Shown here: positions 2,977-29,673 of the stretch, piece by piece | Numbering within the stretch: the first letter of the stretch is position 1 | How the letters are laid out: the number at the start of each line of letters is the position of its first letter | The notes under the pieces: model-generated | What the model was told of the DNA's origin: nothing | Seen by the model: only the letters and a program-made list of their open reading frames with translations | Databases searched by the model: none | IMG/VR virus record: IMGVR_UViG_3300044675_005663 | Coordinates: 1-35,732 of that record | DNA length: 35,732 nt | Source: a virus | Strand: one strand, 5' to 3' | Program-made: the position numbers and the translations under genes

Positions 2977-3230
2977 TCGAAGCGTACAAGCCCCCCCGCC
3001 AAACCTTCCGAGCCGTGATCGTCCTTCGCCGCATCTACAACTACGTTGTCGCTCAGCGGCTTGTCCCATTCCACCTGCCCGCATCAGAGCGTGAGCTACG
3101 CCGCTGGGATGCTCTTGGCGAGGCTTACGGCGCCCTGCTGGAGATCAAGTACGCCGACAGCCTGCAGTCCGCCCGCGAGCTTGCGGCAGGCTCCGTCGAT
3201 CGCGTTCGTGCATCTTGCCGCCAGTCATGA
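2973..3230 (+). CDS. Small unknown basic protein (85 aa)
   Basis: The GTG start at 2973 overlaps the previous stop, and its own stop (3228-3230) overlaps the ATG at 3227 of the sigma-like frame. It is rich in Arg and predicted helical (AVIVLRRIYNYVVAQRL, SERELRRWDALGEAYGALLEI). No domain is recognised. Close coupling on both sides supports it as a genuine gene of the TerL-to-portal operon. Confidence 0.65.
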   Translation: MIEAYKPPRQTFRAVIVLRRIYNYVVAQRLVPFHLPASERELRRWDALGEAYGALLEIKYADSLQSARELAAGSVDRVRASCRQS

Positions 3231-4318
3231 CTACCATCCTCAACCCGCAACCGCAACCCACCGATGGCAACCTTGAAGCTCCCGAAGGCACCGCTATCCC
3301 AACTGGTCGGCAGGCCGGTGGCGGGGACGTGGCGACTTCGCCAGTCGTCGCAGGGGAGCCACCTGGAAGTGTTCAGGTTCGGCGGGAGCTGGACACCACC
3401 ATCGCGGGAGGTGAAGATCCACCTGACGCCAAGCCACGTCGTGCTACTCGATCGCGGCGAGCTGTTCGTGAAGGAGAACCCCTAGAACAGCCAGTCAAGC
3501 CCGGTAGCCCGCCCCGTACCGAGCTATCCGAGCGGTTGATCACTGAAAACCAAGGCCTCGCCCGCGCTGCTGCCAACAAGTGGGCAAGGCTTTGCGGTCG
3601 GCACTATGACGACTTCATCGGCCCCGCGTTGTTGGGGCTTGTCAATGGCTGCCGACGCTACGACCCCACCCGTATCAACCCTAGTACCGGGCGCCCGTAT
3701 GCCATCTCTACCTGCGTCTGCCAGTACATCGAAGGGGAGATCAAGCATTACATCAGGGATCATGGCTATGACGTAAAAATGCCTAGCAAGTGGCGCGAGC
3801 ACTACCCAAAGGCGCGCAGGTTGCTGGCCGAAGGCTTGGCCCTGGCCCAGATAGTGGAGGCCATCCCCGCCTTCACCGAGGCTGAGTTCACCGAAATGAT
3901 GGGTGCCATGGTCGGCACCGTTGAGCTTGAGGATGAGATCACCCTGTTCAGCGATCACCAGCCCGAGTCCGTGGACCAGAGCATCGCAGCGGCATTGTTC
4001 CGACTGACTGAACAAGCATTTAACAACCTGCGACCCGCTGACCGTGGCCTACTGGAGCGATGGGCTGCCGATCCGTTCAAGCGGTCCTTCCCGTCAGGGC
4101 CGCTCATCCAGTTTCACAACCGCTTGAAGGCTCAGCTGCGCGGCAAGACCCTGCAACAGTTCCGCCAGGTGATGCTTGACATTGACGTGGTGGCCACACC
4201 CCCAGCACCCAAGGCACGCAGCCCACGCCAGCCCAGGCCCGCAGCTTCCCCAGTAGTCCAGCCGTCGCTGTTTGGCCGTAATCAGCGCAAGCCACACCCT
4301 AGGGCGGTAAAGCTATAG
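3227..4318 (+). CDS. Sigma-70 region 2 protein, SigF-like (phage sigma-like factor)
   Basis: Residues about 104-192 match region 2 of cyanobacterial-type group 3 sigma factors: LITENQGLARAAANKW, DDFIGPALLGLVNGCRRYDP, then STCVCQYIEGEIKHYIRDHG and VKMPSKWRE. The last segment corresponds to the -10 recognition and core-binding part (FSSFAVPYIxGEIxHYLRD in SigF-like proteins, from memory). A short region-3-like stretch follows (ALAQIVEAIPAFTEAEF). No clear region 4 helix-turn-helix is seen; the C-terminus is Pro/Arg-rich. It probably recruits RNA polymerase to phage promoters. The start is uncertain: ATG 3227 gives 363 residues with a low-complexity first 100, and TTG 3536 would start directly at region 2. 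Confidence 0.75.
   Translation: MTTILNPQPQPTDGNLEAPEGTAIPTGRQAGGGDVATSPVVAGEPPGSVQVRRELDTTIAGGEDPPDAKPRRATRSRRAVREGEPLEQPVKPGSPPRTELSERLITENQGLARAAANKWARLCGRHYDDFIGPALLGLVNGCRRYDPTRINPSTGRPYAISTCVCQYIEGEIKHYIRDHGYDVKMPSKWREHYPKARRLLAEGLALAQIVEAIPAFTEAEFTEMMGAMVGTVELEDEITLFSDHQPESVDQSIAAALFRLTEQAFNNLRPADRGLLERWAADPFKRSFPSGPLIQFHNRLKAQLRGKTLQQFRQVMLDIDVVATPPAPKARSPRQPRPAASPVVQPSLFGRNQRKPHPRAVKL
3264..3485 (+). CDS. Nested small ORF (73 aa) in another frame of the sigma-like gene
   Basis: This frame starts at ATG 3264 after a CAACCCACCG leader and stops with TAG at 3483-3485. Its codons are strongly G/C-ending and the product looks like a folded protein (LVGRPVAGTWRLRQ, HLEVFRFGGSW, VKIHLTPSHVVLLDRGELFV). 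The sigma-like frame over the same bases is Pro/Gly/Arg-rich and low in complexity. I therefore suspect this is the true gene over 3264-3485 and that the sigma-like protein begins later or overlaps it. The family is unknown. Confidence 0.5.
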   Translation: MATLKLPKAPLSQLVGRPVAGTWRLRQSSQGSHLEVFRFGGSWTPPSREVKIHLTPSHVVLLDRGELFVKENP

Positions 4319-11513: not shown

Positions 11514-11735
11514 TCAGTTGAATCCTTCAATGAACTCGCGCACCTGATCTTTTGTCGTCAGGTCGCCAAACGCCATCCTGCCCAGGGCAAGCGCAATACC
11601 TGGGTGACCTGCGGTCTTAGGGTGCTTCCTAAGGTCACTGATCATCGAACTCAGTGCCTGCTGCAGATACCCCTGATCCACGTAGTCCAAGGCTCGTTTC
11701 TTGCACCATTGCAGGTGCTGTGCTCGTGGTTGCAT
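11514..11735 (-). CDS. Conserved phage-type small protein (73 aa), island 1
   Basis: The sequence QHLQWCKKRALDYVDQGYLQQALSSMISDLRKHP followed by HPGIALALGRMAFG and VREFIEGFN matches a small protein family I know from many phages and phage-like regions, with no assigned function. The minus-strand start is ATG 11735. It is the promoter-proximal gene of island 1, facing the divergent gap at 11736-11863. Confidence 0.75.
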   Translation of the reverse strand: MQPRAQHLQWCKKRALDYVDQGYLQQALSSMISDLRKHPKTAGHPGIALALGRMAFGDLTTKDQVREFIEGFN

Positions 11736-11805: not shown

Positions 11806-11844
11806 CCTAAGCCATTGTCATTCCCTAAGCCACTCTGGCAAGCT
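11806..11844 (+). promoter_or_regulatory. CCTAAGCC tandem element, copy a
   Basis: CCTAAGCC occurs at 11806-11813 and 11824-11831 (18-nt period). Five bases later comes GGCAAGCTGAGG, a variant of the GGAAAGCT motif. The next + strand start is 58 nt from the first repeat. The upstream part of the gap also has CCGGGG...CCCCGG as a hairpin, shared in part with the gap at 14885-15048. Confidence 0.65.
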
Positions 11845-11863
11845 GAGGAAACGCCACGCACCG

Positions 11864-12076
11864 ATGCCCCACGCTACGGCCGCACCGATGCCCCCCGAAC
11901 TGCGGGCCTTCCTGACCCTTCATGCCACGGTAGGGGCCAGGGATGAAGAGGCTACGCGGCAGGTGCTGCGTGAAGTTGCCGTGGCCATGCCGCCACGCAG
12001 CGGCCATAAGGTCGTCACCATGTTGCAGCGATCCATCGGCATGGGCGCCCGCGTCTGGCTGCAGAAGCTCGCCTAG
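11864..12076 (+). CDS. Unknown small protein (70 aa)
   Basis: ATG 11864 fits the fixed distance from the CCTAAGCC element; upstream in-frame codons would run through that element. The product has a short His/Pro/Ala start, then a helical body (PPELRAFLTLHATVGARDEEATRQVLREVAVAM) and a basic end. No family is recognised. Its TAG is followed immediately by the GTG of the HNH gene. Confidence 0.6.
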   Translation: MPHATAAPMPPELRAFLTLHATVGARDEEATRQVLREVAVAMPPRSGHKVVTMLQRSIGMGARVWLQKLA

Positions 12077-12376
12077 GTGGCATCCCACCGAATCGAGGGA
12101 ACCGTGCTGGTCACTCGAAGCAGTTTCAGGCGCGAGATCATTGACGCCTGGAATGGAATCTGCGCTTACTGCGGATGCCAGCCCAAAAACATCACGCTCG
12201 ATCATGTGATCGCCAAGGCCAGGGGAGGTCCCACGGTCCGTGCCAATCAGGTGGCCGCCTGCGCTCGCTGCAATGCTTCAAAGGGCGATAGCGATGTCTG
12301 GGCCTGGTATCAAGCGCAGCCGTTCTTTTGTGCTGACAGGGCGGCAAGAATCAGGCAGTGGCACGCCCCAGACTGA
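12077..12376 (+). CDS. HNH endonuclease
   Basis: This compact 99-residue HNH nuclease has the paired-cysteine form: CAYCGC (29-34), the catalytic LDHV (41-44), an NQ pair at 57-58 and CARCNASKG (62-70). HNH proteins nick or cut DNA, and in phages they often act in packaging next to the terminase or as homing enzymes. Here the gene is 10 kb from terL, beside antisense accessory genes, so a homing or mobile role is also plausible. The start is GTG 12077 immediately after the previous TAG. Confidence 0.88.
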   Translation: MASHRIEGTVLVTRSSFRREIIDAWNGICAYCGCQPKNITLDHVIAKARGGPTVRANQVAACARCNASKGDSDVWAWYQAQPFFCADRAARIRQWHAPD

Positions 12377-12532
12377 TTACTTGGCCTTCGGGCGGGCGGA
12401 CTTGGCGGACTTGGCGGGCTTGGCTTTCTTCGGCATCGCCATCGCCATGGACATTGAGCTGCCACCCTTCTTGTCCTTGCCCATCGCCATTGAGCCTTTG
12501 CCTGCGCCCTTGCCTGCTGACTTGCCGTACAC
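12377..12532 (-). CDS. Very basic Lys/Met/Gly-rich small protein (51 aa), island 2
   Basis: A minus-strand frame from GTG 12532 to TAA at 12379-12377 encodes a protein built of GK, SM, AM and KSA repeats (GKSAGKGAGKG, SMSMAMAMPKK, PAKSAKSARPKAK). It is too short to be noticed easily but has strongly GC-ending codons. A GGAAAGCT motif lies 30 nt upstream on the same strand, and the gene ends exactly beside the HNH stop. Histone-like or DNA-condensing action is conceivable from charge alone. Confidence 0.6.
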   Translation of the reverse strand: MYGKSAGKGAGKGSMAMGKDKKGGSSMSMAMAMPKKAKPAKSAKSARPKAK

Positions 12533-12554
12533 GGGAATCTCCGATTACTACCGC

Positions 12555-12562
12555 AGCTTTCC
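12555..12562 (-). repeat. GGAAAGCT boundary motif, minus-strand copy
   Basis: AGCTTTCC on the + strand; on the minus strand CCGGGAAAGCTGCGG points at the GTG start 30 nt downstream. Confidence 0.7.
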
Positions 12563-12591
12563 CGGAAACCTGCAGCAGATCGCATAGCGAC

Positions 12592-13086
12592 ATGACCATC
12601 CCAACCCTAAACGCCGCCTGGCGGGTGACGCCACGGGATGACCGTGAGCTGATTCGAGGGTATGCCGGCTGGCCGTTATCGGTTACCAACCAGACCGAAC
12701 TGACCTCAATCCTTAACAGGGTGGCGCTGATCTCCGCCTCTACCGTTTCGCAGGTGCAACGATGGATCGACGAGATCGAGGCCCTGGAGGCGGACTACGC
12801 GGACCGGGTGGAAGCGGGCCGGGAGCACCTGCTGAATGCAGCGAGCTACGAAGGCCCCGCCCCTGGCACCACCCTGACCCGCGAGGACCTAGAGAGCAAA
12901 GCCGACGTATTGGAGTGGAATACCGACCTGCTGCGCGTGAAGTACGAGTCAGGCGGTCCTGGTGGGACGGCCGGCGCCGTGCTCGCCGCTCGTTTGGCCG
13001 ACTTAAAAGGCCGGATCTTCCAGTCGCTGGGGATCAAACCGGTCGTCGGCGGCAGCGGCGGAATGGCGCAACTGGTGCGTAGCTGA
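12592..13086 (+). CDS. Probable head-tail adaptor/head completion protein (164 aa)
   Basis: ATG 12592 is chosen because everything in frame before it lies antisense to the minus-strand basic gene. The protein is largely helical with charged runs (RWIDEIEALEADYADRVEAGREHLLN, LESKADVLEWNTDLLRVKYE). It has a flexible Gly-rich segment and sits directly before two further completion-type genes. Assignment as a connector or adaptor rests on position. Its stop overlaps the next start (TGATGG). Confidence 0.55.
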   Translation: MTIPTLNAAWRVTPRDDRELIRGYAGWPLSVTNQTELTSILNRVALISASTVSQVQRWIDEIEALEADYADRVEAGREHLLNAASYEGPAPGTTLTREDLESKADVLEWNTDLLRVKYESGGPGGTAGAVLAARLADLKGRIFQSLGIKPVVGGSGGMAQLVRS

Positions 13087-13553
13087 TGGCCACGGACTTC
13101 GCCGAATACGCCAACCTGAGGATGCTCTGGACGCCGCCTGGCGCGATCACCAACTTCCGCGCCGGGGTGCCTGCCGCTGGCCCTGCGGTGGTGGTCGAGG
13201 CCTTTGCCAAGAGCCAAGGCCGCAGTGAGCAGGATCTGCCGGGGGTGATGGCGGGCTCGCTGATCTTGGAGGGCTACCTCACCCGTTGGGCGCTGCTGGG
13301 CTCCGCCAGCTGGCTGGCTGCCGGGTCGTCGCTGAGCTGGGATGAGACGGGCTACAGGCCGGCTGGAATGCTGCCAGGCGCCGAAGGCAAGGCGGTGTTG
13401 ACCGATCTCACTGTGCTGCCCACGCTGGCCGATGGTGCCGAGCAGGGGCAGTTGCGGATCCTGGAGTTTCCGTTCGGGGTCGGCGGGATTGGCAGCAAGC
13501 TACGCAAGGCCCTGGGGGACAAGTTCAGGGCGGCACTTTCCACTGCGGTGTGA
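13086..13553 (+). CDS. Head-tail connector region protein, unknown (155 aa)
   Basis: ATG 13086 overlaps the previous stop. The product contains a beta-rich middle (AVVVEAFAKSQGR...VMAGSLILEGYLTRWALL) and hydrophobic turns (ETGYRPAGMLPGAEGKAVLTDLTVLP). Its end is basic. Position between an adaptor-like gene and a gp10-like gene suggests a head completion or stopper protein. No diagnostic motif is recognised. Confidence 0.6.
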   Translation: MATDFAEYANLRMLWTPPGAITNFRAGVPAAGPAVVVEAFAKSQGRSEQDLPGVMAGSLILEGYLTRWALLGSASWLAAGSSLSWDETGYRPAGMLPGAEGKAVLTDLTVLPTLADGAEQGQLRILEFPFGVGGIGSKLRKALGDKFRAALSTAV

Positions 13554-13556
13554 GCT

Positions 13557-13997
13557 ATGTCCATCCGCGTTGAAACCACGGTCACAGGCCCCGGCCCTGG
13601 AGCAACGGACCGGATGCTGCAGGAGATCGCCCGCAAAACCCTGATCGAGCTGTTCGGTCGGTACCAGGCCAGCTTCAACCCTGCGGCGTGGAACTGGCCA
13701 CGGGAAACACAGCGCCGGGTCGGGGTGGTTGGCAGCCCGCGCAATATCGTGGACACCGGCTCACTGCGGCAAAGCGGCACCTACAGCTTCGTTGGCCCCT
13801 ACACGCTGGAAGCTCGCTGGAGCGCCGGCTACGCCACTGCCGTGCATGAAGGTGCCCGACTGCGCAACGGCACCATCCTGCCGGCTAGGCCCTGGACAGA
13901 TGCGGTGAGTGGCGCGGTGCAGGCCCCAGGGATCCCCGTCTATCCACTGGGGCAGCGGCTGCAGCAACGGATACAGGTGGCGGTAGCGCGGGGCTAG
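13557..13997 (+). CDS. HK97 gp10-like neck/tail completion protein
   Basis: The 146-residue product ends with the pattern DTGSLRQSGTYSF, YATAVHEGARLRNGTILPARPWTDAV. This is typical of HK97 gp10-like and related neck or tail completion proteins, in which a Y-A-x-x-xHEG motif precedes a PARPW motif. These sit at the head-tail interface of siphoviruses. ATG 13557 is three bases after the previous stop. The 3' end meets the convergent minus-strand gene, overlapping by four bases. Confidence 0.75.
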   Translation: MSIRVETTVTGPGPGATDRMLQEIARKTLIELFGRYQASFNPAAWNWPRETQRRVGVVGSPRNIVDTGSLRQSGTYSFVGPYTLEARWSAGYATAVHEGARLRNGTILPARPWTDAVSGAVQAPGIPVYPLGQRLQQRIQVAVARG

Positions 13998-14491
13998 GTG
14001 GGTTGGTCGCTGTCTACCGTCGTCGGCAGGAACTGAGTTGACGCCGGCAACCAGTATGTGAACGGCAAGTCCATCTTCAAGCAATATGTCGGTTTCAAAT
14101 CCCAGACCAATTGCACTTGGCCGCAGTGCCTGAAGCTCTTGGCCAGGTAGCAGTAGTGTTCGTCGATGGCGCTGGTTCCATCGTATGCCGTGATGACCAC
14201 ACAATCCCCGTCCTCCGGCAGCCGTTCGCTCACCGGGATGGGCTTTGGCGCGGGGGCGGGGCGGCCATAGCGGGCGAGAACGGCGTGGGCAAACCGCAAT
14301 GCTTCGCCATATAAAGCAAAGTATTCCGCTTCTTTGTCCCAAAGGTCATATAGCTCTTGATCGCTCGGCCCCTCCATCTCCGGCTCGTCCAGAGCGGCTC
14401 GGAGCTTGAGGGTTACACGATTAAGTACGGCCGCACGGCCAGCGTCAATCTCTGACAGCAGCTCAGCACACAAGGCACGAAAGTCGGTCAT
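13994..14491 (-). CDS. DUF551-domain protein (165 aa), island 3
   Basis: The C-terminal half carries the DUF551 pattern: PIPVSERLPEDGDCVVITAYDG, then LPFTYWLPASTQFLPTT. DUF551 proteins are common accessory proteins of phages, with unknown role. The N-terminal half (FRALCAELLSEIDAGR, then a helical segment ending RFAHAVLARYG) resembles other small phage proteins. The minus-strand start is ATG 14491, following a CATTCACCACCACCG leader also seen at other minus-strand genes. Confidence 0.75.
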   Translation of the reverse strand: MTDFRALCAELLSEIDAGRAAVLNRVTLKLRAALDEPEMEGPSDQELYDLWDKEAEYFALYGEALRFAHAVLARYGRPAPAPKPIPVSERLPEDGDCVVITAYDGTSAIDEHYCYLAKSFRHCGQVQLVWDLKPTYCLKMDLPFTYWLPASTQFLPTTVDSDQPT

Positions 14492-14530
14492 GGTCGGTGG
14501 TGGTGAATGGGTGCTAATGCTTTGGTTAGT

Positions 14531-14884
14531 TCAGGTAGTGGGGGCAGGCGCCAGATCGCCGACAGCAACCGCTTCTCCAGCTTCTTGCAGTCGGATCCTA
14601 ATGCGTCGCACCATTTCTGGCGTAAGGGTCTTGCCAGTGCGAGTGCAACAGCCGGCCTCGAAAAGATCACGACTCAAAGCCGACAGGCTCTTGTCACACC
14701 CAGCTTCCAGGACATCCCGGTAGTTCATGGCCTGCCGCAAGGCCTCTACATGGGCTGCGGTGTTGCGCTGTTTGGTCGCTGGCCTTAGCCCACCCAGAAC
14801 AGTGCCTTTTCGCAGGGCTTGCCGCAACCCTTGGCGGATTGCGTAACTAGGGGCGATTTCACCGGTTACAAGTGGTTGGTCCAT
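14531..14884 (-). CDS. Recombinase-type helix-turn-helix protein (117 aa), island 3
   Basis: The minus-strand ATG 14884 begins MDQPLVTGEIAPSYAIRQGLRQALRKG. The second half, SLSALSRDLFEAGCCTRTGKTLTPEMVRRIRIRL, resembles the DNA-binding linker of recombinase-like proteins (S-L-x-x-L-A-x-x-L-x-x-x-G-x-x-T-R-x-G-K-x-W...). No catalytic domain is present, so a DNA-binding accessory or regulator is more likely than a recombinase. It faces the divergent gap at 14885-15048. Confidence 0.6.
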   Translation of the reverse strand: MDQPLVTGEIAPSYAIRQGLRQALRKGTVLGGLRPATKQRNTAAHVEALRQAMNYRDVLEAGCDKSLSALSRDLFEAGCCTRTGKTLTPEMVRRIRIRLQEAGEAVAVGDLAPAPTT

Positions 14885-14990
14885 GAAGGGGTGTCGGTGG
14901 TGGTAGTGAATGAGTGCCGGGGCTTACAAGTCGGCCATGCCGCCTGCAACTCAGTCATCGGGCCCAACGAAAGAGACCCGGCCCTCACAT

Positions 14991-15029
14991 CCTAAGCCAT
15001 CGCCCTTCCCTAAGCCACTACGGCAAACT
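14991..15029 (+). promoter_or_regulatory. CCTAAGCC tandem element, copy b
   Basis: CCTAAGCC at 14991-14998 and 15009-15016 (18-nt period), then five bases and GGCAAACTGGG. The first repeat is 58 nt from the GTG start of the chaperone gene. The whole gap aligns with the one upstream of 11864, so it is a duplicated divergent control region. Confidence 0.65.
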
Positions 15030-15048
15030 GGGAAAACACAACAGCACC

Positions 15049-15750
15049 GTGCCCCTACCCTTTGTCACCGCGCTAGATGTCCAGGTTCAGGACGTGGGGG
15101 ACGCAACCACGGGTATCCTGCAATTCCCGGTCTTCCATGCTCTGCTGGTCGGGGAGCGCTTACTGCTGGAAGAGATTGAAGACCAGTCCACGCTGACCGA
15201 TCAGTTGCAGCGCTTGGCTCAGGTCATCCAGCACATGGACAACCTACCCGAGCCCACCGCCAATCTTGTCGCACTACGGGTGATGTCCGCGCACAACGGC
15301 ATCCCCGTGGTGCTGGAGCCGCTGGAAAAAATGATTCGCAAGCGCGAGCACCGGTTGATCCATGAAATTGACAAGTGCCAAACCGCAAAACTTCAAGCAA
15401 GGGTCACGCGGATGGTTACCGCTGCAATCCGTTACCGCCTGGGGGAAGTAGATGCTGACTGCGCCAACTGGACCGATGATGAAACCCTGAAGATGACCGA
15501 AGGGCTGCGAGATGCCATCTACAACTTTATGCTGCGAGAGCAACGCGGGGGCAAGGATCAGGAAGCGCCCGACTTGCAAGCAATGGCCGAAAACCTGGGA
15601 AAGCCCAACCTGCCCCAACCGACTGGGGCGCAATTTTCTGGCGAGTCAACGACCTCTGGCCCAACCATCAATTCTTCTCCTGTGAGCGATTCGCCTACTG
15701 CCCCGAAACGATCGTCTGGGAAGCGATCGAAACAGGCGCCCGATTCCTGA
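15049..15750 (+). CDS. Tail assembly chaperone, short (zero-frame) form, gpG-like
   Basis: The zero-frame product is 233 residues from GTG 15049, chosen by distance to the upstream element; earlier in-frame codons run through the control region. The body is a hydrophobic start (FVTALDVQVQDVGDATTGILQFPVFHALLVGERLLLEEIED), a long helical part, then a Ser/Thr/Pro-rich tail after residue 185. That tail looks like the untranslated alternative of a frameshift gene. In lambda-like phages gpG and gpGT coat the tape measure protein during tail assembly. Confidence 0.7.
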   Translation: MPLPFVTALDVQVQDVGDATTGILQFPVFHALLVGERLLLEEIEDQSTLTDQLQRLAQVIQHMDNLPEPTANLVALRVMSAHNGIPVVLEPLEKMIRKREHRLIHEIDKCQTAKLQARVTRMVTAAIRYRLGEVDADCANWTDDETLKMTEGLRDAIYNFMLREQRGGKDQEAPDLQAMAENLGKPNLPQPTGAQFSGESTTSGPTINSSPVSDSPTAPKRSSGKRSKQAPDS

Positions 15751-16379
15751 GGGAACGGCAGCACGCTGCAGAACGGCCGATCGCCAACCTTCACGCCTGG
15801 TACGCCAGCGCACACCGGGACACCGATAAACGCAGCGAGCCGTTCAAGATGGAAGACTTCTGCTGGCACTTGCCGCCGACTGCGGCTGGCGATGCACCAC
15901 AGGGCCCGCCTGCAGAAGCTGGCGCGGCGATGCTTGCCCTATGCGAAGCCCAGCAGGTTCCAGGGTTTGCGATGGCCTTCTACGATGCCCTTGCTACCAC
16001 CGGAGAGGGAATAACCCCACCCACACTGTTGGCCCTGCTGGCAGATGATGCCCTGCTACTGGCCCCAGTCGAGCAGCAGGACGGCTGGCGGGGGTTGCTG
16101 CTGGCCGAAGATACCGCAGCCGGTCAGGTGCGTGCCTTCAGGATGGCGGGGGATCCGCAGCGGGTGGTGGCGCTGCTTGTGCCAGACGCTCCCGATGCTG
16201 TGACGCCAGCATGGGCGGCGGCAGGAGCATGGCTGCCCATCGTTCAATCTGCTGATAGCACGCCTCAACCTCCTGCGCTGCCGCCTGGATTGACGGGAAA
16301 TAGCCCAGCGACCAACGGCGACCATCCCACCACACCCGAGCCTGATACGGGCGATGGTTGTTGTGAGGGCAGTGGCTGA
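15049..16379 (+). CDS. Tail assembly chaperone, -1 frameshift fusion, gpGT-like
   Basis: A -1 shift at GGGAAAG (15597-15603) joins the first 185 residues to a second frame that runs to 16379, giving 443 residues. Without the shift this second frame lacks a start for its clearly coding 5' part: DWGAIFWRVNDLWP, ERFAYCPETIVWEAIETG, RPIANLHAWYASAHRD. The nearest ATG (15849) would cut these off. The arrangement reproduces the lambda G/GT system, in which a minority fusion product is needed for tail assembly. The last 240 bases are antisense to the AP2-domain gene, and residues there are Pro/Thr-rich. Confidence 0.75.
15597..15603 (+). other. -1 programmed ribosomal frameshift site
   Basis: The heptamer reads G GGA AAG in the zero frame (codons GGA at 15598-15600, AAG at 15601-15603), the same slippery sequence used by lambda G/GT. 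Slipping to GGG AAA opens the frame that continues to 16379. Confidence 0.75.
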
Positions 16380-16401
16380 CGCCGCGAGGATAGGAGGCCA
16401 T
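16138..16401 (-). CDS. AP2-domain DNA-binding protein (87 aa), island 4
   Basis: The minus-strand ATG 16401 begins MASYPRGVSHCPHNNHRPYQARVWWDGRRW, followed by LGYFPSIQAAAQEVEACY. The pattern RGV...YQARV..DG+R..LGYF....AA...E.CY is the AP2/ERF DNA-binding fold, which in bacteria and phages occurs with or without HNH nuclease domains. Here there is no nuclease, only a Pro/Ala-rich tail. A GGAAAGCT motif lies 13 nt upstream on the same strand. The gene overlaps the end of the chaperone fusion frame by 242 bases tail to tail. Confidence 0.7.
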   Translation of the reverse strand: MASYPRGVSHCPHNNHRPYQARVWWDGRRWSLGYFPSIQAAAQEVEACYQQIERWAAMLLPPPMLASQHRERLAQAAPPPAADPPPS

Positions 16402-16406
16402 GCCCC

Positions 16407-16414
16407 AGCTTTCC
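16407..16414 (-). repeat. GGAAAGCT boundary motif, minus-strand copy
   Basis: AGCTTTCC on the + strand. Read on the minus strand it lies 13 nt before the ATG of the AP2 gene, the same distance as the copy at 17927. Confidence 0.7.
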
Positions 16415-16416
16415 AG

Positions 16417-16455
16417 CCTAAGCCGCTGATGAGGCTTAAGCCATGGCGGCACCCT
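16417..16455 (+). promoter_or_regulatory. CCTAAGCC tandem element, copy c
   Basis: CCTAAGCC (16417-16424) and CTTAAGCC (16435-16442), 18 nt apart, then five bases and GGCACCCTGAG. The first repeat is 57 nt from the ATG at 16474. It shares this short divergent gap with the minus-strand motif of the AP2 gene. Confidence 0.6.
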
Positions 16456-16473: not shown

Positions 16474-17322
16474 ATGGCCGGCAGAAACATGACTTTGGAG
16501 TGGCAGCAGGCCTTTGGCTACCGGTTCTTTTTTGCCCCCATCAAGTCGTCAGCGATCGACCTAACCCGCGTCAATCTTGGCGGGCTTGGTGCTGGCAAAT
16601 TCATCAACGACACCACGATTCAACCGGCATCTGCCAAGGTGATTACCGCCGGCACGGGTGATACCTTCGCTTTTGGCGTTGGCACCAAAGCGGTAACGAA
16701 TGCCGTCACCACTACCTCTCTCGCCACCCTGACCTTCGACGCTGCCCACGGCATTGCAGTAGGCCGGAGGATCGTTGTCAAAGATCTCCCCGCCCCGTTC
16801 GCCAGTCTGAACGGTTCGTTCGTGGTGACATCGGTGACCACCACAAGCCCGCACACCCTCTCCTACGCCCTGGCTGGTTCTGCGATCACCACGGCCGCCG
16901 TTGCCGCTGGTGTAGTGGCTCCGTCGCTGCTGCTAGATGGTACTGACCCCCCGTTTCGGCTGCTGGGGCTGACCAACTGCCAGCCGGCAAACAGCACCAC
17001 CAAGGAGGCCATCACCACCTACGACGACGAGGCGGGCGGCTATGCCACCCCGATCCCGACCGCCAAAGATAAGACCTGGACCTTGAACGGTGCTACCGCT
17101 TTCAATGCGTCTGCTTGGCGTGCGATGCGCCTCTGCGAAGAGCTGAACCTGGGAGAGAAACTAATGGTGGGGTACGCCCTGGTCGGCCCCCACAACGGGA
17201 ACCTTGTGGAATACGGGTTCGGCCTGTTTGAGAGCTACCAGCCCTCGCAGGAGGCAGGCACCGTGATCAAGTATTCGGTGAACCTGGCTGGCTACGGCAA
17301 GCCGGGGCTTGAACTGCTCTGA
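16474..17322 (+). CDS. Probable major tail tube protein with inserted beta domain
   Basis: The 282-residue protein has a split layout. An N-terminal tube-like segment (LEWQQAFGYRFFFAP) is followed by a beta domain at about 73-148 (TLTFDAAHGIAVGRRIVVKD, LNGSFVVTSV, HTLSYALAGS). After it, a tube-like C-terminal half continues (YDDEAGGYATPIPTAKDKTWTLNGATAF, SYQPSQEAGTVIKYSVNLAGYGKP). Position after the tail chaperone and before the tape measure agrees with a tail tube subunit. ATG 16474 is used, preceded by AGAGG; ATG 16489 is possible. The inserted domain resembles one in the head protein at 29722. Confidence 0.7.
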   Translation: MAGRNMTLEWQQAFGYRFFFAPIKSSAIDLTRVNLGGLGAGKFINDTTIQPASAKVITAGTGDTFAFGVGTKAVTNAVTTTSLATLTFDAAHGIAVGRRIVVKDLPAPFASLNGSFVVTSVTTTSPHTLSYALAGSAITTAAVAAGVVAPSLLLDGTDPPFRLLGLTNCQPANSTTKEAITTYDDEAGGYATPIPTAKDKTWTLNGATAFNASAWRAMRLCEELNLGEKLMVGYALVGPHNGNLVEYGFGLFESYQPSQEAGTVIKYSVNLAGYGKPGLELL

Positions 17323-27603: not shown

Positions 27604-27741
27604 ATGAACCCCCAACACCAACCCGACTCCTTCGAGACCCTCCTGGAAACCGTCCAGACCCGCCAGCTTGCCAACCGCATCGCCGCCGCCGAACGGGAGC
27701 AGGAGCGCCGCCAGCGGCCTAAGCCATCGCGCAACCGCTAA
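27604..27741 (+). CDS. Small charged protein (45 aa)
   Basis: ATG 27604 encodes a helical, charged product (DSFETLLETVQTRQLANRIAAAEREQERRQRPKPSRNR) ending in TAA, four bases before the next boundary motif. Codons are GC-rich, unlike the AT-rich gene before it. It precedes the scaffold gene and could be a head assembly helper. The end of this gene carries CCTAAGCC (27718-27725) and CTAAGCC (27738-27744), related to the tandem elements upstream of 11864. Confidence 0.6.
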   Translation: MNPQHQPDSFETLLETVQTRQLANRIAAAEREQERRQRPKPSRNR

Positions 27742-27744
27742 GCC

Positions 27745-27752
27745 GGAAAGCT
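27745..27752 (+). repeat. GGAAAGCT boundary motif, copy 6
   Basis: Context CTAAGCCGGAAAGCTGGAG, 46 nt before the scaffold ATG. Here the GGAAAGCT word directly follows a CTAAGCC word. Confidence 0.75.
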
Positions 27753-27790: not shown

Positions 27791-28591
27791 ATGAAGAAAC
27801 GTTGGATTGATCAGTTCACCCTCCAGGGCCCTGAAGGTGGCAGCGAGGGTGGTGGTGGTGGTGGCAATGCTCTCGGCACAGGAGCTGGCTTGGGGGGCGC
27901 CGATCCCGCCCCTGGCGGTGGCGAGGGGGATGGCGAAGGGGATGACCTCTCCCGCGTCAAACATGCCCTGCAGCGTGAGCGCGAGGCCAACCGCGAAAAA
28001 GAGCGTCGTATGGGTGCCCTGGAAGCCCAGTTAAAGGAGCTTAGCACTACCAACCCTGAGGCAGTGCGGGCGGCCGAGGCCAGGGCCAAGGAGGAGCAAG
28101 CACGACGGGAGCTGATCGAGCAGCAGGCGGCCTTGGAGCGCCAGCAGATCGAGGCCAAATACTCGCAGCAACTGGAAGCATCCACCACTGCCCTTCAGGC
28201 CGAACGGGAAGCCCGCCAGCGCGAGCTTGTACGGCAGCTAGCCGAGAAGGCCTTTGTCCTCGCCAAGGGATCCACGGAGGTATCCGAGATCGACCGCAGC
28301 ACCCCCTTTGATTCGGTCTGGGGCCGTTTTGGCCCTCAGTTCCGCAATGAAGACGGTGCACTTGTGGTTGTCGATGCCAATGGAAGCCCAGAGATCGACC
28401 CGGAAACCGGCAAGCGCTTTGAGCCCGTCAAGTGGTTCCGGCGGCTCCAATCCGATCCCGTCTGGGGGCGCAACTTCGAGCCAGCCATGGGCAGCGGTGG
28501 CGGGGCACGTACCGGGCGTGATGGCCGTGTTACCAACGGCAAAGACCTGATGTCCATGCCTGTTAGCGCGGCGATTGCGGAGGTTTTTTAG
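27791..28591 (+). CDS. Capsid scaffold protein
   Basis: The 266-residue protein has the scaffold layout. A Gly/Asp-rich flexible start (GGGGGGNALGTG, GEGDGEGDDLSRV) leads into a long coiled coil at about 58-150 (LQREREANREKERRMGALEAQLKEL through QAEREARQRELVRQLAEKAF). A C-terminal domain follows with DPETGKRFEPVKWFRRLQSDP. Scaffold proteins nucleate prohead assembly and leave before packaging. It lies directly upstream of the capsid gene, which supports the call. Confidence 0.85.
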   Translation: MKKRWIDQFTLQGPEGGSEGGGGGGNALGTGAGLGGADPAPGGGEGDGEGDDLSRVKHALQREREANREKERRMGALEAQLKELSTTNPEAVRAAEARAKEEQARRELIEQQAALERQQIEAKYSQQLEASTTALQAEREARQRELVRQLAEKAFVLAKGSTEVSEIDRSTPFDSVWGRFGPQFRNEDGALVVVDANGSPEIDPETGKRFEPVKWFRRLQSDPVWGRNFEPAMGSGGGARTGRDGRVTNGKDLMSMPVSAAIAEVF

Positions 28592-28758: not shown

Positions 28759-29673
28759 ATGGGACTAACACTTCTGGAGGCCGCCAAAGTTGATACCAAT
28801 CAACAACGGGTGGCCGTTATTCGCGCTCTTGCTGAATCCGAGGTAATCCGCCTCGTACCCTTTCTCAACGTGCAAGGTGGTATTGACTACCTCACCGAAG
28901 CTGAATTGCCTGGCGTTGGGTTTCGTGGTATCAACGAAACCTTTGAGGCTACCTACGGCGTGCTCAATCCTGAGTACGAACGCCTCAAGCCGTTTGGCGG
29001 CGACATTGATGTGGACATGCACCTCATCAAAAACAATGGCCCTCAGGTAAGGGCTCAGCAAATCGAGGCGAAGCTGCGATCCATGCGGCTAACGCTTGAG
29101 GATTACATGTTCAACGGCGATGAGTCGGTTGACCCTCGCAGCTTTGATGGCCTCAGGAAACGGATTGGCACCGACAGCTCTCAAGCATTTAATGCCAGCG
29201 GTGCATTTTCGCTTGGCTTGCTGGATGAGCTGATTGACGCCGTGGATGGCGACAACAAGGTTGTCCACATGGGCAAGGCGATGCGTCGGCGACTCACTGC
29301 TGCTAGCCGTAATTCCACCATCGGTGGATTCCTGACTACCACGCGAGACGAGTTTGGCAATCTCGTCACCACTTATGGCGACACTCGCATTGTCGTCACT
29401 GACACCAATGCCCAAAACGTGACCATCCAAGGTTTTACCGAGGCTGGCAACACCACCAGTGTTTATTGCGTCGCCTACGGTGATCAGCAAGTCACTGGCA
29501 TCCAAGGCCCTGATTCGGCTGGTGGGTATGGGGTTGACGTAAAGGCATTCGGAGAAGTATCCGATGCCCCAGTGGATCGCACCCGGATCGAATGGTCTGT
29601 CGGACTTGCGATTATGAATGGTCGCAGCGCTGCCCGCGTTTACGGCATCACTAATGACGCAATGACCGCCTGA
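28759..29673 (+). CDS. Major capsid protein
   Basis: The 304-residue product follows the scaffold gene. It has features of HK97-fold capsid proteins: helical start (LLEAAKVDTNQQRVAVIRALAESEVIRLVPF), E-loop-like GVGFRGINETFEATYGVLNPEYE, spine-helix region (QVRAQQIEAKLRSMRLTLEDYMFNGDES) and LDELIDAVDGDNKVVHMGKAMRRRL. A beta-rich P-domain and an AMTA end follow. The start is ATG 28759 with no Shine-Dalgarno sequence, after an AACCTCCCCCCCCA leader. It is far (23 kb) from the portal, an unusual order. Confidence 0.85.
   Translation: MGLTLLEAAKVDTNQQRVAVIRALAESEVIRLVPFLNVQGGIDYLTEAELPGVGFRGINETFEATYGVLNPEYERLKPFGGDIDVDMHLIKNNGPQVRAQQIEAKLRSMRLTLEDYMFNGDESVDPRSFDGLRKRIGTDSSQAFNASGAFSLGLLDELIDAVDGDNKVVHMGKAMRRRLTAASRNSTIGGFLTTTRDEFGNLVTTYGDTRIVVTDTNAQNVTIQGFTEAGNTTSVYCVAYGDQQVTGIQGPDSAGGYGVDVKAFGEVSDAPVDRTRIEWSVGLAIMNGRSAARVYGITNDAMTA

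Follow-up and report, generated by a model that had tools for sequence, protein, structure and literature searches.

A conserved paired TAAGCC element, and candidate two-box late promoter, before structural-module genes in an uncultured group of likely cyanophages

The locus and its likely host

The window, by which we mean the whole stretch of DNA that was analyzed (35,732 nucleotides, or 35.7 kb), is an IMG/VR virus record. Its terminase is 51 to 55% identical to those of the cyanophages KBS-S-2A, S-H1, and P-HS2, its capsid protein is ~45% identical to those of PSS2 and several Caulobacter phages, and for its tail protein and sigma gene, distant matches come from S-CBS2, S-CRES1-3, and PSS2. 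These matches make a cyanobacterial host likely, and we infer that the host habitat is probably fresh water. A search of GTDB genomes found no prophage with a related tail protein.

Exact matches to CCTAAGCCN10CYTAAGCC begin at 11806, 14991, and 16417, all on the + strand and all with a period of 18 nt, just as a reading of the sequence alone had proposed; 100 dinucleotide shuffles gave an expectation of 0 and a maximum of 0. A single CYTAAGCC with one mismatch allowed is not enriched (51 seen versus 51.6 expected), so the signal lies in the fixed pairing. Pairs of TAAGCC spaced 18 or 19 nt apart occur four times in the window against ~0.009 expected under random placement. Unbiased hexamer dyads in the window gave many chance ties, and the element therefore stands out only by its longer words and its conservation; a test of 8-mer overrepresentation failed to rank the TAAGCC words, as TAAGCC on its own is frequent.

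Site 1 (11806..11831, +) has the form CCTAAGCC-N10-CCTAAGCC. It lies beyond a leftward gene (11514..11735, −) and is followed by a small + gene, an HNH gene, and further structural-module genes. Site 2 (14991..15016, +) has the same two boxes, lies beyond two leftward genes (13994..14491 and 14531..14884, both −, the cargo at the latter varying among relatives), and precedes a + gene at 15049..15750. Site 3 (16417..16442, +; CCTAAGCC-N10-CTTAAGCC), for which relatives supply 36 distinct sequences, precedes the gene for the major tail protein (16489..17322, +). The looser copy that had been pointed out at 27718 is a true fourth member of the set, with 21 distinct sequences among relatives: site 4 (27718..27744, +; CCTAAGCC-N11-GCTAAGCC) has a period of 19 and precedes the genes for a scaffold-like protein (27791..28591, +; a weak family match) and the major capsid protein (28759..29673, +). 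Site 4 also overlaps the end of the upstream + frame: box 1 falls within its final codons (Pro-Lys-Pro), and the TAA of box 2 provides its stop codon. The codons CCT AAG CCA are invariant in all 21 sequences amid synonymous variation in most neighboring codons, which suggests that selection acts on the DNA word itself.

Sites 1 to 3 each lie just past a leftward island, as had been claimed, and for site 3 this island is a leftward gene of 87 amino acids (16138..16401, −; MASYPRGVSHC...). Variation in this gene averages 0.19 at third codon positions against 0.05 to 0.06 at the other two (mean over 28 sequences), and a competing + ORF (15849-16379) was rejected as far as its end at 16379, for stop codons interrupt its last part in many relatives. 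The codon-position variation and these stops together indicate that the minus-strand gene is real, and it is kept in 36 of 36 site 3 sequences. Its protein is conserved (MASYPRGVSHCPH...YQARVWWDGRRWSLGYF); by eye only, it resembles an AP2-type domain, and a Pfam search with it gave no match.

In the window, the next + start lies 58, 58, and 57 nt from the first box of sites 1, 2, and 3, a regularity that holds for this sequence and is not conserved in relatives, where the distance is 58 to 63 nt at sites 1 and 2, mostly 71 to 72 nt at site 3, and 72 to 73 nt at site 4. The conserved start of the tail protein gene is 16489, and the ATG at 16474 looks like a strain-specific extra ATG upstream of it. 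The third block once assigned to the element, GGCAMNCTGRG after a five-base gap, is indeed present at sites 1 to 3, but it resembles a separate leader element, GGAAAGCT, and is best left out of the promoter core. At site 1 this block is GGCAAGCTG (11837..11845, +), a variant of the intercistronic element GGAAAGCT, and at site 4 GGAAAGCT itself (27745..27752, +) is fused to the paired boxes.

Conservation of the paired boxes in relatives

We compared 69 loci with a related tail protein and 33 with a related capsid protein from IMG/VR contigs. Dozens of these contigs carry the sites at matching gene borders, and only on the strand that bears the structural genes. Eight further large records carry three to four sites each, all on that strand, making nine site-bearing genomes with the window. 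We grouped the sites by sequence into families A (sites 1 and 2), C (site 3), and D (site 4), in all of which the invariant core is TAAGCC while most of the flanks vary. Among related contigs, TAAGCC pairs are spaced 18 nt apart in 35 distinct cases and 19 nt in 13, with two or fewer cases for any other spacing. The expectation that related phages would share this geometry was thus borne out for the paired boxes and their gene borders and failed for the distance to the start codon. Variants point to the essential features: box 1 is altered to TAATCC in one genome (G004), and box 2 to CCTAAGGC or CCTAAGCA in three loci (L290, L320, and L317) that keep the spacing. In a distant clade with 46 to 48% tail protein identity, box 1 is kept, and box 2 becomes CTTGCC, CTTACC, or CTTGCA. 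The element has the sequence features expected of a two-box sigma promoter, namely, conserved boxes, a spacing constant to within 1 bp, and a place upstream of genes on one strand.

Accepted sites scored 24.4 to 36 with a position weight matrix (PWM). Because reversed-sequence controls produced a single score of 24.6 and a single score of 21.4, the score alone is no proof. The sets of related contigs on which the PWM, spacing, and junction tests were developed and applied overlap, and their counts are not independent; the sole correction for relatedness is the tree of junction 2 described below. We also considered a bidirectional promoter at site 3 (reverse-strand TTAAGCC...CTTAG, then GGAAAGCTG and the minus-strand start). 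Its PWM scores of 10.5 to 11.5 were near those of the controls, and this reading was therefore not adopted.

Coupling of the element to leftward inserts

Junction 2, between the genes at 13557 and 15049, amounts to a natural experiment that was repeated at least five times. Among 42 distinct rows of relatives, the site is present in all 30 that have a leftward insert and in none of the 12 that do not. The tree of this junction requires at least five independent changes, and the five independent contrasts all point the same way (sign test, 0.0625, the lowest value possible for five pairs). One relative (L137) has lost both the insert and box 1 and still has box 2 and the leader. The cargo genes at the inserts are unlike from relative to relative, so the element is not tied to any one cargo. 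The proposal that the element restarts + strand transcription after each antisense insertion is accordingly strongly supported at junction 2 but does not hold universally: no leftward gene precedes site 4, and two relatives (L165 and L300) keep site 1 at junction 1 without an insert. A cassette that brought the element along would leave junction 2 looking just like this, although sites 1 and 4 speak against a cassette as the full explanation.

Two relatives with an empty junction 2 (L253, from G001, and L237) carry TAAGCCGGAAAGCTAAGCCG there, in which a TAAGCC pair lies 13 nt apart; it is a hybrid of the box and the GGAAAGCT leader with the wrong spacing. The leftward genes have a leader of their own in common, YATTCACYRCCA, just upstream of their start codons (14912, 14509, 11756, and 11500, all −). 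Most relatives, though not every one, have one or two copies of it, opposite in strand to the structural genes, and it may serve the inserted genes as a promoter or leader.

A divergent sigma factor in site-bearing genomes

The window encodes a divergent sigma factor with SigF/SigB-like regions 2 and 3 (3215..4318, +; conserved core from ~3479), which we propose as the reader of the boxes. The sigma gene is present in nine of nine site-bearing genomes. The ORF at 3215-4318 matches the PHROG sigma factor family at 3e-18 and carries a sigma70-family region 2, the part that binds core polymerase and reads the −10 box: PF04542 (region 2) was matched in all nine genomes, mostly below its curated cutoff, and the modeled region 2 superposes on known sigma factors at 1.3 to 1.6 Å over 72 to 78 residues, among the best matches. 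A Foldseek search with the model returned transcription initiation or sigma chains throughout the matches listed. The best family models, for 12 of 12 members, are SigF (1.1e-17) and SigBFG (8e-12). The nearest named family is cyanobacterial SigF/SigB. Scores of 45 to 65 bits are below the curated cutoffs of 234 to 261 bits, which makes the protein a distant relative of the SigF/SigB/SigG subfamily. Its only PDB profile match is Staphylococcus aureus SigB (1.2e-5).

No match to PF04545 (region 4, which reads the −35 box) was found at this gene. The C-terminal 85 residues are modeled as four helices (pLDDT 77), and a structure search of the PDB with this domain gave no clear match.

The terminase-related isolates KBS-S-2A and S-H1 were searched for this type of sigma factor and for the sites, and both isolates lack both; KBS-S-2A has an RpoD-like sigma factor, and S-H1 gave no region 2 match. 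The cyanosiphoviruses S-CBS2, S-CRES1-3, and PSS2 have a related SigF-type sigma gene (~30 to 35% identity), which in S-CRES1 and S-CRES3 directly follows the terminase gene; in both phages, a leftward HNH gene also lies a short distance before the gene for the major tail protein. No TAAGC(C/T)-type pair was found in S-CBS2, S-CRES1, or S-CRES3 (first 50 kb of each) or in P-HS2.

A proposed late promoter and its alternatives

The sequence-only reading took the element for a promoter or activator site. Its four conserved sites on one strand, the 18- or 19-nt spacing, its constant place before structural-module genes, and the sigma gene in all nine genomes support a promoter-type element. We consider it moderately probable that the paired boxes are a two-box phage late promoter of the approximate form CMTAAGCC, 10 or 11 bp, YCTAAG(CC). 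From sequence evidence, we infer that host RNA polymerase with the phage's own SigF/SigB-like sigma factor would read box 1 as a −35-type box and box 2 as a −10-type box, and that transcription would start a few bases beyond box 2 to yield a short 5′ leader. Each of the four copies would then drive a late block of its own: the genes that follow 11806, the gene at 15049, the major tail protein gene, and the scaffold and capsid genes. Where leftward genes have come to lie between + genes through insertion, the copy on the far side would restart + strand transcription. Such a promoter would provide a specific and testable code for late transcription, with a candidate sigma factor to read it, in a cyanophage group that has not been cultured, and it suggests how a phage could accept wrong-strand genes inside a structural operon without silencing the genes beyond.

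Several observations count against a promoter. The C-terminal domain of the sigma factor would have to recognize box 1 but gave no match to any known region 4; the boxes are nearly identical, a feature seen more often in repeated regulator sites than in −35/−10 pairs; at site 4 the GGAAAGCT block abuts box 2, and a start just past box 2 would cut into it; and the spacing of 18 to 19 is shorter than the ~20 bp of SigF −32/−12 promoters, from whose consensus the boxes also differ. We regard as doubtful a bolder version in which a new C-terminal DNA-reading domain of the phage sigma factor reads the two near-identical boxes and a fresh copy of the element accompanies each antisense cargo insertion, the two being gained and lost together.

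The near-identity of the direct repeats and the lack of a recognizable region 4 would fit a phage or host activator that binds tandem TAAGCC and recruits polymerase with a host sigma factor, the real −10 and −35 boxes lying elsewhere. A scan of sites 1 to 3, however, found no + strand match to the sigma70 housekeeping promoter TTGACA-N17-TATAAT, and every site-bearing genome has the sigma gene. Most tandem regulator sites occupy one face of the DNA at whole helix-turn spacing, whereas 18 to 19 bp does not correspond to an integral number of turns, and we think an activator site unlikely. It is more improbable still that the element works as RNA in the 5′ leader, whether as a structured leader, a processing signal, or a translation signal. 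Two hairpins are possible at site 3, TAAGCC/GGCTTA and, beside the start, CCGGC/GCCGG; families C and A have consensus folds that are stabler than column shuffles (z of −2.65 and −3.43, respectively), and the GGAAAGCT block beside box 2 recurs at gene borders. Family D, on the other hand, is no stabler than shuffles (z of −0.07), an Rfam search of the window gave nothing convincing, and box 1 of site 4 lies inside upstream coding sequence; the boxes are invariant, with no covariation or compensatory pairs, and no fold is shared by all three families, which disfavors RNA. We give least credence to the element being no promoter at all and simply part of an inserted cassette, as a recombination or homing target of the leftward genes. 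The joint comings and goings of element and insert at junction 2 and the nearby HNH gene fit such a cassette, but site 4 has no leftward gene, L165 and L300 keep site 1 without an insert, unrelated and differing cargo sits beside the same element, and the orientation of the element fits the + genes only.

Known systems resemble the proposed late promoter in part. Like T4 gp55, the sigma factor proposed here is phage encoded and would turn on late structural genes. T4-type late promoters have a single −10-type box with clamp activation, whereas the element described here has two boxes. Cyanobacterial group 3 SigF promoters (Synechocystis pilA1 and sigF) have TAGGC at −32 and GGTAA at −12 (PMC2758279). 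The phage element likewise has two boxes, the −32 box loosely resembles the TAAGC of box 1, the −12 box shares TAA with box 2, and SigF is the best family model of the phage sigma factor. The phage boxes (TAAGCC and YCTAAG) are nonetheless different words in a near-identical pair, lie 18 to 19 bp apart instead of ~20 bp, and stand before phage structural genes; this is not a cyanobacterial SigF promoter. Bacillus SigB promoters (GTTTAA-N14-GGGTAT; PMC9847131) also combine two boxes at near-fixed spacing with a sigma factor of the same class, but their sequences are unrelated, and their start-to-start distance is 20 against 18 to 19 in the phage. The phage element would thus be a relative in kind of SigF and SigB promoters and a member of neither class. 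A limited literature search found no promoter of similar form, which is not proof that none has been described.

Other repeats in the window

The GGAAAGCT element occurs eight times on the + strand (4326, 8926, 17927, 25925, 26402, 27745, 30666, and 34067) and twice on the − strand (16414 and 12562). It lies mostly at + gene borders, at times overlapping the upstream stop codon, and it is biased toward the structural strand in eight of the eight genomes counted (e.g., 11:4 and 9:2). It is possibly a leader, processing, or translation-coupling element. Ahead of small + genes, a further leader, GTAACGnACCGGCTAC, occurs three times (5905, 6402, and 7154, +), each followed by an AT-rich stretch, and TGCGACAATCTGTGAAC precedes two of the three (6360 and 7112). 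These GTAACGnACCGGCTAC leaders look like a putative second promoter class. Three copies of CCGGCTACnTAT are also present in one relative (G002), and this sequence is absent from the others.
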